Source: Methanoregulaceae archaeon (GTDB lineage Archaea > Halobacteriota > Methanomicrobia > Methanomicrobiales > Methanospirillaceae). From it: a DNA stretch of 38,510 nt. The notes beneath the pieces are model-generated. The model worked only from the letters and a program-made list of their open reading frames with translations. It searched no databases and had not been told where the DNA came from. Shown piece by piece: positions 10,831-17,866 of the stretch. The stretch spans positions 1 to 38,510 of the forward strand of contig JAJFVA010000018.1 of the NCBI GenBank assembly GCA_021371995.1, given 5' to 3'. A program made the translations under genes and the position numbers. Position 1 is the first letter of the stretch, and each line of letters starts with the position of its first letter.

Positions 10831-11538
10831 TCAGGCACTATAGAAGGTCACTCTTTTTCCTTTCTGGCTGTACTCCCCCTTATACGTCTCGATATTTCGT
10901 TTATAGCCGATACGATCAGTAAACCCGAGTTCACGCAGGCGTTCCCTGATCCGCATGACCTCCTGCTCATCCTGCCAGTCAGGGGTATAGACATAAATCA
11001 CTTTCATACTGTCCCGTGAGTCAGGATTTGGTTTTGCCGTGCTCACCTTGGCTGAAATACCGAGTTCCTTTCTGCAGGTGGCATTGCGTATGAGTGTCCA
11101 TGCTTCGTCCACCCGTTCGGGAGGAAGGAAGATGAGCCATTTTCCTGCGAGCTCATCCTCTATTGCATCCGGCTTTACATCAGGTGCGTCCTGGACAATC
11201 CAGTACATCCTGGTGGTCCGGCTCGGGATCACCCCTTCCCCTGCGAGGATGGCGTGGTATATTGCGCCAGCGGAGCCAAAACGGAAGATCAGCGCTTCTC
11301 CGAGCTGGGGATATTCGCTACAGAATTTTTCAAATATCTGGAGGAACGGGGCCTCAAAATCAATGTCTCCTTCCACGAGCTCAAAAAGATACGGTCCCAT
11401 AGCGCGAAGCCCGGCATTCAGCATCACTTCGAAAAGACCGTAAGCGACGTCAGCAAGCGCTTCGGGATCGACTTTCTCCATATGATAGGATGTACACGGA
11501 TGCAATGAAAAAAGGTTATGTTCACTGTACCCGGCCAC
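10831..11538 (-). CDS. DUF1917 family protein (BLES03/C11orf68-like)
   Basis: A 235-residue protein that I place in the DUF1917 family, which also includes human BLES03 (C11orf68). The C-terminal half carries the family pattern: GKWLIFLPPERVDEAW, ELGISAKVSTA, VIYVYTPDW and a Lys/Tyr-rich end. Databases sometimes name the family after a distant phosphothreonine-lyase-like fold; no activity is established. The N-terminal half (residues 20-110) is helical and less recognisable. A GTG start at 11538 overlaps the thi4 end by 17 nt; an ATG at 11481 would remove 19 residues and neither has a strong Shine-Dalgarno. It appears cotranscribed with thi4. Confidence 0.72.
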   Translation of the reverse strand: MAGYSEHNLFSLHPCTSYHMEKVDPEALADVAYGLFEVMLNAGLRAMGPYLFELVEGDIDFEAPFLQIFEKFCSEYPQLGEALIFRFGSAGAIYHAILAGEGVIPSRTTRMYWIVQDAPDVKPDAIEDELAGKWLIFLPPERVDEAWTLIRNATCRKELGISAKVSTAKPNPDSRDSMKVIYVYTPDWQDEQEVMRIRERLRELGFTDRIGYKRNIETYKGEYSQKGKRVTFYSA

Positions 11539-14675: not shown

Positions 14676-15131
14676 ATGACTCCGGAACAGTACAGAGCGA
14701 TTATATCCAAAGCAATTGAACGAGAAGTGGAATCCTACACCTACTACCGGACCGTTTCCGATAAGGTGAAGGATGCATATCTGAAGAAAATATTCGCAGA
14801 CCTCGCAGGCGACGAAACCAAGCACCGCGAGTTCCTGCAGGGACTCCTCGCAAAGGAGCCAAAGCAGCTCAAGATTTCTGCTACAAAGGACTACAAGATT
14901 GCCGATACAGTGAAAACCCCTGCGCTATCGGCTGATTTGAAGCCCCTCGATGGAATTGTTCTCGCTATCAAGAAGGAGCTTGAGGCGATGCAGATGTATA
15001 CGCAGCTTGCTGAAGCACAGACTGATGCAGAACAGAAACTTCTCTTCACCGACCTTGCAGCAATGGAGCGGGGCCACAAGGCCCGGCTCGAGGACATTTA
15101 CACGAACATGGCATTTCCCGAATCCTGGTAA
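14676..15131 (+). CDS. Ferritin-like diiron protein (rubrerythrin type, no rubredoxin domain)
   Basis: A 151-residue four-helix protein. Two Glu plus ExxH sets are seen: REVESYTYY with GDETKHREF in the first half, and KKELEAMQMY with AMERGHKARLE in the second. This is the arrangement of a carboxylate-bridged diiron site. No CxxC rubredoxin module is attached at either end. Related proteins reduce peroxide or store iron in anaerobes; which applies here is not decided by sequence. A strong TATA box and Shine-Dalgarno precede it and a nine-T run follows it, so it is a single-gene unit, probably well expressed. Confidence 0.88.
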   Translation: MTPEQYRAIISKAIEREVESYTYYRTVSDKVKDAYLKKIFADLAGDETKHREFLQGLLAKEPKQLKISATKDYKIADTVKTPALSADLKPLDGIVLAIKKELEAMQMYTQLAEAQTDAEQKLLFTDLAAMERGHKARLEDIYTNMAFPESW

Positions 15132-15161: not shown

Positions 15162-15377
15162 TCAGTTATTTCCTGATTCGTTCTCGTTCATCCAGCAATT
15201 TCATTCCCCTGATATTCACGTAAAACCATTGCCCGTGCAAAAACCCTGGAACGCCATGGGTACGGTAAGAAAATTCCTTAAAATATTACCGGATTTTAAA
15301 AAATTCCCGTGAATAAAAAACGATCTTACCCGTTCGGTAATCTAATAACCCCTCACACAAAGATCATACCAGCATAT

Positions 15378-16235
15378 ATGCAACGCAGTCCCAGGACTTT
15401 CCGGGTGGTTTCAGTCCTTTTCATACTAGCAATAGGCCTCATGGCAGTCTTCCTGATCCCGACAACAGTTTCAGGAGATTCACCCTCTGAAATTGCAGCG
15501 TCCTATATCCAAAAAGGAGATGACCTTACCCTCAAGAAACAATATCTTGAAGCCCTTGAAGCATATGAGGCTGCGGTCGCGAGCGATCCCTACAACAGTA
15601 TCGCGTGGAACAAACTCGGGATTGCGCACATGAACACCGGGAGATATCAGGATGCAGTGACTGCATTTGAAAAGGCTCTTACCATCGATCCATTCTACCC
15701 GGAGGCCTGGAACAACAAGGGGGATTCACTCTTAAAGCTGGGAGAGTACGATGATGCCATCAGTGCCTATGACCAGGCGCTTCTTTTGAATCCAAATGAT
15801 CTCTATGCATTGCTCAGAAAGGGCACCAGCCTTCAGGAATCAGGGTCTCCAGCTGAGGCCATGCTCATCTATCAGGAAGTCATCAGCCTGGCTGAGAAAG
15901 AAGTAAGAAAACACCCTGATTATGCCCGTTTCGATGCGAAATTATGGGCCAACAAAGCCGAAGCACTCTACCGGCTGGGGCGGTATCCAGAAGCAGTGGA
16001 GGCATATTCCGCTGCGCTCGCCATCAATCCCAAATATGACCGGGCTCTCCAGGGGAAAATTCATGCAGAGGAAGAGATACTGCGTGCCCGGGGTTCTCCC
16101 ACAACCACTATACCTGCAACGGAGGGCAACATAGTTGATATCGGACTGACAAATCTCCCCGTTTCATTCCCTGTACTGCTTGGAGCGCTCGTGGCTGCAG
16201 TATTCCTGCTCCGGATAAGACAACAAAAGAAGTAA
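15378..16235 (+). CDS. Membrane-anchored TPR-repeat protein
   Basis: A 285-residue exported protein. From ATG 15378 it has a basic start (MQRSPRTFR) and one hydrophobic segment (about 10-30, VVSVLFILAIGLMAVFLIP), then at least four tetratricopeptide repeats over about residues 38-225, with the classic AWNKLGIAHMNTGRY and EAWNNKGDSLLKLGEY patterns. A Thr-rich linker and a C-terminal membrane helix (VLLGALVAAVFLL) ending in RIRQQKK follow, so the repeats probably face outside and are tethered at the C-terminus. An in-frame GTG at 15309 would add 23 polar residues before the signal and is less likely. The radical SAM gene starts 19 nt after its stop. Confidence 0.85.
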   Translation: MQRSPRTFRVVSVLFILAIGLMAVFLIPTTVSGDSPSEIAASYIQKGDDLTLKKQYLEALEAYEAAVASDPYNSIAWNKLGIAHMNTGRYQDAVTAFEKALTIDPFYPEAWNNKGDSLLKLGEYDDAISAYDQALLLNPNDLYALLRKGTSLQESGSPAEAMLIYQEVISLAEKEVRKHPDYARFDAKLWANKAEALYRLGRYPEAVEAYSAALAINPKYDRALQGKIHAEEEILRARGSPTTTIPATEGNIVDIGLTNLPVSFPVLLGALVAAVFLLRIRQQKK

Positions 16236-16254
16236 ACGGATAGCAGATTCTTCC

Positions 16255-17373
16255 ATGTTCTTTCATGTTATCCTGACCGACGAGTGCAATCTCTCCTGCC
16301 GGTACTGCCGGGGAAATGTATCCGATGCGTTTCTCCCGGTCGATGACAATTGCATTCTTGATATGAATATCCCCCTTGAACTGGCGTATGATCTTTCCGA
16401 CCTCTATTCCTTTCTGTCGAATGACCCCTCACCCTGCATCACGTTTTACGGGGGTGAACCCCTCATCAGGGCAGATCTCGTGAGGGAGATCATGGATCAT
16501 GCACCGGTTTCCCGGTTTATGGTCCAGACCAATGGTCTCCTGCTTGATGCAGTAGGGCAGGAGTACCTCAATCGCATGGAAACGATTCTTGTATCGGTGG
16601 ACGGCCCGGAGGATCTTACCGATTATCATCGCGGAAAAGGGACGTTTCGTCGGGTAGTTACACAAATCAAAGCACTACGGAACAGAGGGTATGCGGGTGA
16701 AGTGATAGCACGGATGACAGTGACTCAAAAGACCGATATCCTGACATCAGTCCGCTACCTTGCTTTTAATGACGACTGCCCGTTTTCATCGGTCCACTGG
16801 CAGATTGATGCCGATTTTTCCGGGAATGCCCAAAACGAGGATTTTCGAAGGTGGCTGCATCACTCGTACAATCCCGGGATCAGGCAACTCATCGAGGATT
16901 GGGTCAGGATCATGAAAGAGGAAGGAAGGGTAGCCCGATGGTACCCTTTTCTCCAGACAACCGAGGATCTCCTGCAGGGGAGAAATTCCCGGCTCCGCTG
17001 CGGCTGCGGCTATGCTAACTACACCATCATGACTGATGGGAGTATTGGCCCCTGTCCTGTCATGATCGGCATGAGTGACTATTATGTAGGTCACATCAAA
17101 ACGGCAGATCCCCGTTCTCTGCCGGAGATTGGACTGGGCGGGTCCTGTAATGACTGCGAAATCTTCGGGTTCTGCGGTGGAAGATGCCTCTATGCAGATG
17201 CGACCAGACCATGGTCTCCGGAACAAAAGGAACTCATCTGCAGCGCGGTATATGCCCTTCGTGAAGGGCTGACAGGTGCACTCCCCCGTATCCGGGAGTG
17301 TATCGAATCAGGCAGGGTACGGCTGGATGATTTTTCACACACCCGCTATAACGGGTGCGAGATTATCCCCTGA
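16255..17373 (+). CDS. SPASM-domain radical SAM protein, putative peptide-modifying (AF1577/Mhun_1560-like)
   Basis: A 372-residue radical SAM enzyme with an extra iron-sulfur domain. The SAM cluster motif CNLSCRYC gives Cys11, Cys15 and Cys18 very close to the N-terminus, followed by TFYGGEPLIR. The C-terminal SPASM-type domain has cysteines at about 249, 251, 267, 298, 301, 307 and 311 (CGCGYANY, GPCPV, CNDCEIFGFCGGRC). This layout matches archaeal families described as putative peptide-modifying enzymes; which of them it belongs to I cannot settle. No small Cys-rich precursor gene is visible within about 1 kb. It follows the TPR gene by 19 nt, suggesting a common transcript. Confidence 0.86.
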   Translation: MFFHVILTDECNLSCRYCRGNVSDAFLPVDDNCILDMNIPLELAYDLSDLYSFLSNDPSPCITFYGGEPLIRADLVREIMDHAPVSRFMVQTNGLLLDAVGQEYLNRMETILVSVDGPEDLTDYHRGKGTFRRVVTQIKALRNRGYAGEVIARMTVTQKTDILTSVRYLAFNDDCPFSSVHWQIDADFSGNAQNEDFRRWLHHSYNPGIRQLIEDWVRIMKEEGRVARWYPFLQTTEDLLQGRNSRLRCGCGYANYTIMTDGSIGPCPVMIGMSDYYVGHIKTADPRSLPEIGLGGSCNDCEIFGFCGGRCLYADATRPWSPEQKELICSAVYALREGLTGALPRIRECIESGRVRLDDFSHTRYNGCEIIP

Positions 17374-17380
17374 ATCGTAG

Positions 17381-17866
17381 CTATTTATGGTAGGGGATTT
17401 TCCGGCTGATACAGTCAGCACGATAGATCTGCTCGATCAGGATGAGCCGGACCAGCTGGTGGGGAAATGTCATCCGGGAAAGCGAAAGCACAAGGTCGGC
17501 ATGTCTGGTCACAGCAGGGGCGAGGCCAAGGGATCCGCCGATGAGAAATGAGATGTTCCCCTGTCCTTCCAGTTCCCACTGGGACATCCGGGCTGAAAGC
17601 TCATCGCTTGAAAGCAGATCTCCCAGCGGATCGAGTGCCACGCCAATCGATCGTTTTGGTGCAGCGGCCATCATGCGTCTTCCTTCTCTCTCTTTTATCG
17701 TCTGCTTTTCAGTATCCGAGCACTTCTCCGGTATCCGTTCTTCAGGGAGATCAGTCATGGCGATTTTATGCCATGGGGAAAGGCGGGTTCGATAGATCTC
17801 GATTCCCTCCCTGATATAAGCCTCCCTGACCTTTCCTATTGCGATGATCTGGATCTGCATGGACAT
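17381..17866 (-). CDS. rlmH: 23S rRNA pseudouridine-1915 N3-methyltransferase RlmH
   Basis: A 161-residue SPOUT methyltransferase that in bacteria methylates pseudouridine 1915 of 23S rRNA. The trefoil-knot SAM site is visible in FLIGGSLGLAPAV, and the conserved end LSRMTFPHQLVRLILIEQIYRA...IPYHK is nearly that of bacterial RlmH. Such genes are scattered among archaea, and a bacterial origin is the usual explanation. ATG 17866 and ATG 17860 are both possible; the second gives MQIQIIAIGK, closer to the bacterial start. GGGATGAG lies just upstream. It is convergent with the radical SAM gene, 7 nt apart, and lies downstream of a DUF5518 gene across a structured 245-bp gap. Confidence 0.93.
   Translation of the reverse strand: MSMQIQIIAIGKVREAYIREGIEIYRTRLSPWHKIAMTDLPEERIPEKCSDTEKQTIKEREGRRMMAAAPKRSIGVALDPLGDLLSSDELSARMSQWELEGQGNISFLIGGSLGLAPAVTRHADLVLSLSRMTFPHQLVRLILIEQIYRADCISRKIPYHK

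Follow-up and report, generated by a model that had tools for sequence, protein, structure and literature searches.

A stand-alone archaeal radical SAM/SPASM enzyme of family TIGR04084 with a conserved C-terminal tail and a clade-specific TPR neighbour

Organization of the locus

The window, that is the whole stretch of 38,510 nucleotides analysed from a Methanoregulaceae archaeon, carries a gene for a TPR protein followed on the same strand by a gene for a radical SAM/SPASM enzyme (Table 1). The original prediction had called attention to the short gap between these two genes, and the length that it gave is exact; whatever else it had read off the letters of the locus was likewise borne out. 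Both genes are probably carried on a single transcript. A GTG at position 15309 is a possible alternative start of the TPR gene and would extend its product to 308 aa.

Directly upstream of the TPR gene, positions 14676-15131 encode a small rubrerythrin/ferritin-like protein, which was not found at the corresponding upstream position in the sampled relatives. Elsewhere in the window, the product of a reverse-strand gene (10831-11538) matches, in its C-terminal part, the Bles03 family, whose best-known members are eukaryotic.

Table 1. Features of the TPR/radical SAM locus, in positions of the window
Feature	Position	Strand	Remarks
TPR protein gene	15378-16235	+	285 aa; ATG start
Intergenic gap between TPR and radical SAM genes	16236-16254	.	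19 nt
TIGR04084-family radical SAM/SPASM enzyme gene	16255-17373	+	372 aa
Radical SAM cluster motif, C11-x3-C15-x2-C18	16285-16308	+
SPASM seven-cysteine region, C249...C329	16999-17241	+
C-terminal tail E369-I-I-P372, immediately before stop	17359-17370	+	from alignment; ordered in predicted models
rlmH (23S rRNA methyltransferase), convergent	17381-17866	-	syntenic in the TPR-linked clade; function unrelated

Family assignment and cluster motifs

The radical SAM gene is not a chance open reading frame, since its product matches the NCBIfam family TIGR04084 with 281.4 bits (cut-off 225) over model positions 1-347, the full length including the C-terminal end. Its identity as a radical SAM protein is also supported by a match to Pfam PF04055 and by an AlphaFold2 model (mean pLDDT 93) with radical SAM fold matches. 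The three cysteines of the SAM cluster are invariant in 165 homologues. As criterion for a SPASM domain we used the seven cysteines of the arrangement C-x9-15-G-x4-C ... C-x2-C-x5-C-x3-C ... C, and the window enzyme has exactly this canonical set (C249-x12-G262-x4-C267; C298-x2-C301-x5-C307-x3-C311; C329), as had been anticipated from its SAM cluster and at least seven further cysteines. Six of the seven are invariant in the same 165 homologues, and the conservation of C329 is at least 90%. From these motifs, two auxiliary 4Fe-4S clusters are expected in the SPASM region. The protein starts only about 4-7 residues ahead of the first strand, which bears the cluster, and therefore has no leader-binding (RRE) domain fused at its N-terminus.

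TIGR04084 (rSAM_AF0577) was matched by all 106 aligned members, and no feature tested separates the window enzyme from this subfamily, which has no assigned function. Our literature search retrieved no paper naming TIGR04084, and the papers retrieved with AF0577 and TIGR04083 were, by their titles, on unrelated subjects. The system had been called undescribed; this stands as far as function and literature are concerned but not for the family itself, which is known as a database entry and is functionally blank.

An invariant C-terminal tail

Alignment of 165 archaeal members revealed a common ending, the two sequences without it being cut by contig ends. All 163 complete sequences finish with E-[IVA]-[IVM]-P and a stop right after the proline. 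The glutamate corresponding to E369 is present in 164 of 164 sequences and the terminal proline (P372) in 163 of 163, an invariance equal to that of the cluster cysteines. The residue preceding the glutamate is Cys in the order of the window and T, V or P elsewhere. In the model of the window enzyme, residues 361-370 have a pLDDT of about 85 and the last two residues 51, and in the model of a homologue from another phylum (mean pLDDT 95) the last nine residues reach 89. The tail is thus predicted by modelling to be ordered rather than a loose end, and its free carboxylate seems to matter, given how strictly the stop is placed.

A degenerate search for E-I-I-P endings in the own genome of the window returned the enzyme itself, one 13-codon frame and three matches that are not followed by a stop. 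A second protein with this ending was considered as a lead to the substrate and rejected, as the search yielded no other gene-sized open reading frame ending in E-I-I-P. Leads to the role of the tail come from other enzymes: the radical SAM enzyme MoaA has a conserved functional C-terminal tail. In QueE, a stiffening tail has been modelled (PMC8124187). The conservation of the tail across archaea is a new finding.

Distribution and phylogeny

Only one copy of the gene exists in its own genome, where four weaker matches all score at most 30 bits; one of these four is an anaerobic sulfatase maturase, another a TIGR04083 enzyme. Within the order of the window, a copy over the cut-off was found in 133 of 150 sampled genomes, representing nearly all genera. 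In the sample of the phylum, 123 of 393 genomes have such a copy, corresponding to this order and a few other families; presence is patchy in one of them (f9), which is taken to be Archaeoglobaceae. Positive genomes were also found in the phylum of a Bathyarchaeota genome (90 of 200, with up to 642 bits) and in that of Methanofastidiosum (10 of 115). Named loci belong to Methanocella, Methanimicrococcus, Bathyarchaeota, Helarchaeota, Thorarchaeota, Heimdallarchaeota, Woesearchaeota and Methanofastidiosum, so that the lineage span includes Asgard and DPANN archaea. As for the control genomes, Sulfolobus acidocaldarius carries a copy and Methanosarcina acetivorans has none over the cut-off.

In a tree of 165 proteins, Methanomicrobiales form one clade (99% SH-aLRT). 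The copies of Methanimicrococcus and of a rumen Methanosarcinaceae MAG (L126, L127, L128) fall inside the Methanocella group and were probably acquired by transfer. The gene of the window encodes a stand-alone archaeal radical SAM/SPASM enzyme that is probably inherited mostly vertically.

The TPR neighbour

The TPR protein has a signal peptide, TPR repeats recognised by Pfam and a C-terminal membrane segment with a basic end, its hydrophobic segments lying at residues 8-28 and 260-280 of 285. This agrees with the exported, membrane-tethered protein of the original prediction. It contains no cysteine. Signal peptide, repeats and C-terminal membrane segment are common to its orthologues, and no cysteine is shared in their mature part.

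The survey of the link between the two genes covered 61 genomes sampled from the order for which flanking sequence was available, 34 of the window's family and 27 of other families. In 15 of the 34, the gene immediately upstream of the radical SAM gene is a TPR orthologue of about 285 codons; these genomes are confined to five genera (g1, g2, g6, g9 and g11), within which the link is kept in 15 of 15 genomes. It is absent from this position in the 19 other genomes of the family and in all 27 of the other families. In those unlinked genomes of the family that were searched, the best TPR match anywhere reached only 90 bits versus 199-277 for linked orthologues, so the orthologue itself is missing from them. 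On the tree, the link changes twice. The convergent rlmH gene is likewise kept in much of the TPR-linked clade, with no expected functional tie to the radical SAM enzyme, so shared descent of gene order suffices to explain the TPR link. Moreover, TPR stretches are frequent in these genomes, with 20 further matches in the own genome, and lineages from Methanoregula to Sulfolobus have the enzyme but not this TPR protein.

In one clade, the TPR and radical SAM genes do form a real operon. The conservation of the pair, a test set beforehand, spoke mostly against a functional link: the single clade keeps it throughout and the remaining genomes of the survey lack it, which does not support the maturation system that had been proposed for the two genes. 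The enzyme is very probably independent of the TPR protein in general. The latter was rejected as a general substrate because it is linked in one clade only and has no cysteine, and its gene is best described as a lineage-specific operon neighbour.

Four Methanocalculus-like loci (L089, L110, L123 and L184) have a 600-codon TPR gene about 75 nt downstream of the radical SAM gene, unrelated to the window TPR gene beyond the repeats.

Search for a precursor or a shared partner

Frames down to 18 codons within 3 kb of the enzyme were compared with ten close relatives, and no conserved intergenic small open reading frame was found. The only matches were frames overlapping a tRNA gene and fragments in one or two of the nearest relatives. 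The absence of a small Cys-rich precursor nearby, noted from the window alone, thus holds over this range. The substrate had been placed either elsewhere or in a protein such as the TPR neighbour; the lack of a local precursor fits the former, while the latter is not supported.

Clustering of the neighbours of 181 loci, 141 from across archaea and 40 from the phylum containing Bathyarchaeota, revealed lineage-specific sets only: no neighbour gene, and no small gene, is common to them, and the neighbourhood survey that had been suggested thus gave no partner. Among these sets, Methanomicrobiaceae-like genomes have a B12-binding radical SAM gene (Pfam), Methanocorpusculum has SepCysS-like and permease-like genes (named by eye) and one group of the Bathyarchaeota-containing phylum has a leucyl-tRNA-synthetase-like gene (named by eye).

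Among the Bathyarchaeota loci (L129-L144), thirteen have a polyprenyl-synthase-like gene and an MFS transporter gene directly upstream of TIGR04084, with a spacing of 13-54 nt in most loci. This operon was not seen in other lineages.

Putative function

Kinship with PapB, fold matches to anSME, CteB, SkfB and SuiB, all of which have protein or peptide substrates, and the missing leader-binding domain together favour a protein or peptide supplied in trans. We consider a substrate of this class moderately probable, keeping in mind that kinship with peptide maturases is no proof of substrate class, as the lipid-acting Gms illustrates (PMC11186832). In the mechanism that we propose, the N-terminal 4Fe-4S cluster would cleave SAM, the 5'-deoxyadenosyl radical would abstract a side-chain hydrogen of the bound substrate and the SPASM clusters would carry the electron off, leaving an oxidised or cross-linked residue; the tail E-I-I-P-COOH may fold back onto the enzyme and aid substrate binding or gating. 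Taken whole, this picture of a stand-alone enzyme acting on a protein or peptide whose gene lies elsewhere, its tail assisting at the active site, stands in our judgement at an even chance.

A small-molecule substrate of the kind used by MoaA, Tes or Gms, for instance a cofactor or lipid precursor, would suit the core-like distribution of the family, the tail recalling those of tailed small-molecule enzymes, and the polyprenyl-synthase-like and MFS transporter genes upstream in Bathyarchaeota. It appears unlikely, however, as that operon is not kept in other lineages, the match to MoaA is poor and the best matches in sequence and structure act on peptides or proteins. The enzyme could also be an ordinary RiPP maturase set apart from a dedicated precursor peptide encoded elsewhere in the genome, as its complete SPASM layout and its closest characterised family, that of the ranthipeptide maturase PapB, would allow. 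Yet near-universal presence in the order is unlike the patchy occurrence of RiPP clusters, and neither an N-terminal leader-binding domain, nor a precursor within 3 kb, nor a small gene common to the 181 neighbourhoods was found; we hold this to be quite unlikely.

The TPR neighbour as substrate or partner is very unlikely in spite of the tight same-strand link throughout five genera, the absence of the orthologue wherever the link is absent and the different 600-aa TPR protein encoded just downstream in Methanocalculus. Nearly all archaea that have the enzyme keep it without this neighbour, the cysteines needed for a thioether are lacking in the window protein and not shared in mature orthologues, and the TPR protein is predicted to be exported whereas the enzyme is cytoplasmic; these genomes have many TPR stretches, and a link that changes twice on the tree may be inherited synteny, like that of rlmH. 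Self-modification, with the E-I-I-P end as substrate, would account for a tail as invariant as the cluster cysteines and for a genome in which the only other stop-terminated match is a 13-codon frame; the Cys before the Glu in the window's order even forms a pair of the type that PapB joins (PMC9413430). That Cys is not conserved elsewhere, though, an enzyme altering itself once would be unusual, and the invariance is also explained by a tail with a catalytic or gating role, which leaves self-modification highly improbable.

A SPASM enzyme kept across a methanogen order and many other archaea, with neither partner nor precursor, points to an overlooked conserved modification. If a protein or peptide is modified in trans as proposed above, a conserved protein in much of the archaeal domain, including the aerobic Sulfolobus, might bear a post-translational modification not yet described, introduced by an enzyme whose invariant free C-terminus (E-I-I-P-COOH) acts as an intrinsic part of the active site or mimics the substrate; this larger claim is tentative and rather doubtful. 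With the tail signature and a member in Sulfolobus, the function becomes testable in a genetic host; what merits further study is the conserved tail and the occurrence across the domain. The tight operon link in one clade is tempting to read as a pointer to the substrate, a misreading that the present survey corrects.

Comparison with characterised enzymes

A second methanogen family of peptide-modifying radical SAM enzymes, TIGR04083, is also of SPASM type and also present in this genome but forms another subfamily, to which the window protein scores 47.5 bits against a cut-off of 300. An mcrA-like gene (named by eye) precedes the TIGR04083 gene (656 bits; L002 1435-2619, G000:C25; also L301) on the same strand, with 218 nt between its stop and the start of the latter. 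As McrA has several rare modifications, the TIGR04083 enzyme may be one of its modifiers. For the window enzyme, a role in MCR modification was rejected because TIGR04084 occurs in Sulfolobus, which has no MCR.

The match to MoaA (GTP 3',8-cyclase) is weak (38 bits); MoaA has one auxiliary cluster and a Gly-Gly tail, unlike the window enzyme. Archaeal Gms is a SPASM enzyme with a lipid substrate (PMC11186832). Identity with this GMGT synthase was set aside, since a length above 420 aa was used to select Gms homologues and Gms has an extra N-terminal domain (PMC11186832).

Among solved structures, the best fold match is anSME (PDB 4k39; TM 0.67-0.70), followed by CteB, SkfB and SuiB. The cluster layout of anSME (TIGR03942), which acts on a protein in trans, matches that of the window enzyme, which however scores 42.6 bits versus a cut-off of 349. 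In anSME the Asp of the 'HFD' stretch is catalytic; the aligned residue of the window enzyme is Leu. The own genome has a single sulfatase, with a CSPTR motif, and, on the same contig at a distance of about 6 kb, a true anSME (495 bits; L300, L003; G000:C27). Sulfatase maturation is an unlikely role because the sulfatase thus already has its own maturase and because of the Leu at the Asp position.

For 104 of 106 members, PapB is the closest of the characterised families in sequence, followed by nif11 and QhpD maturases; the earlier reading of the window enzyme as having the layout of peptide-modifying SPASM enzymes is right in placing it with those that act on peptides or proteins. PapB forms Cys-Asp/Glu thioethers and accepts widely differing peptide sequences (PMC9413430). 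The window enzyme scores 88 bits against the PapB model (NF047865; cut-off 340) and is thus not a member. The adjacent Cys-rich precursor that would be expected of a PapB system was not found within 3 kb of the window enzyme, nor is one common to its relatives. The layout of the two enzymes is alike over residues 5-313 of the window enzyme, which continues for about 59 extra C-terminal residues and ends in the invariant tail.
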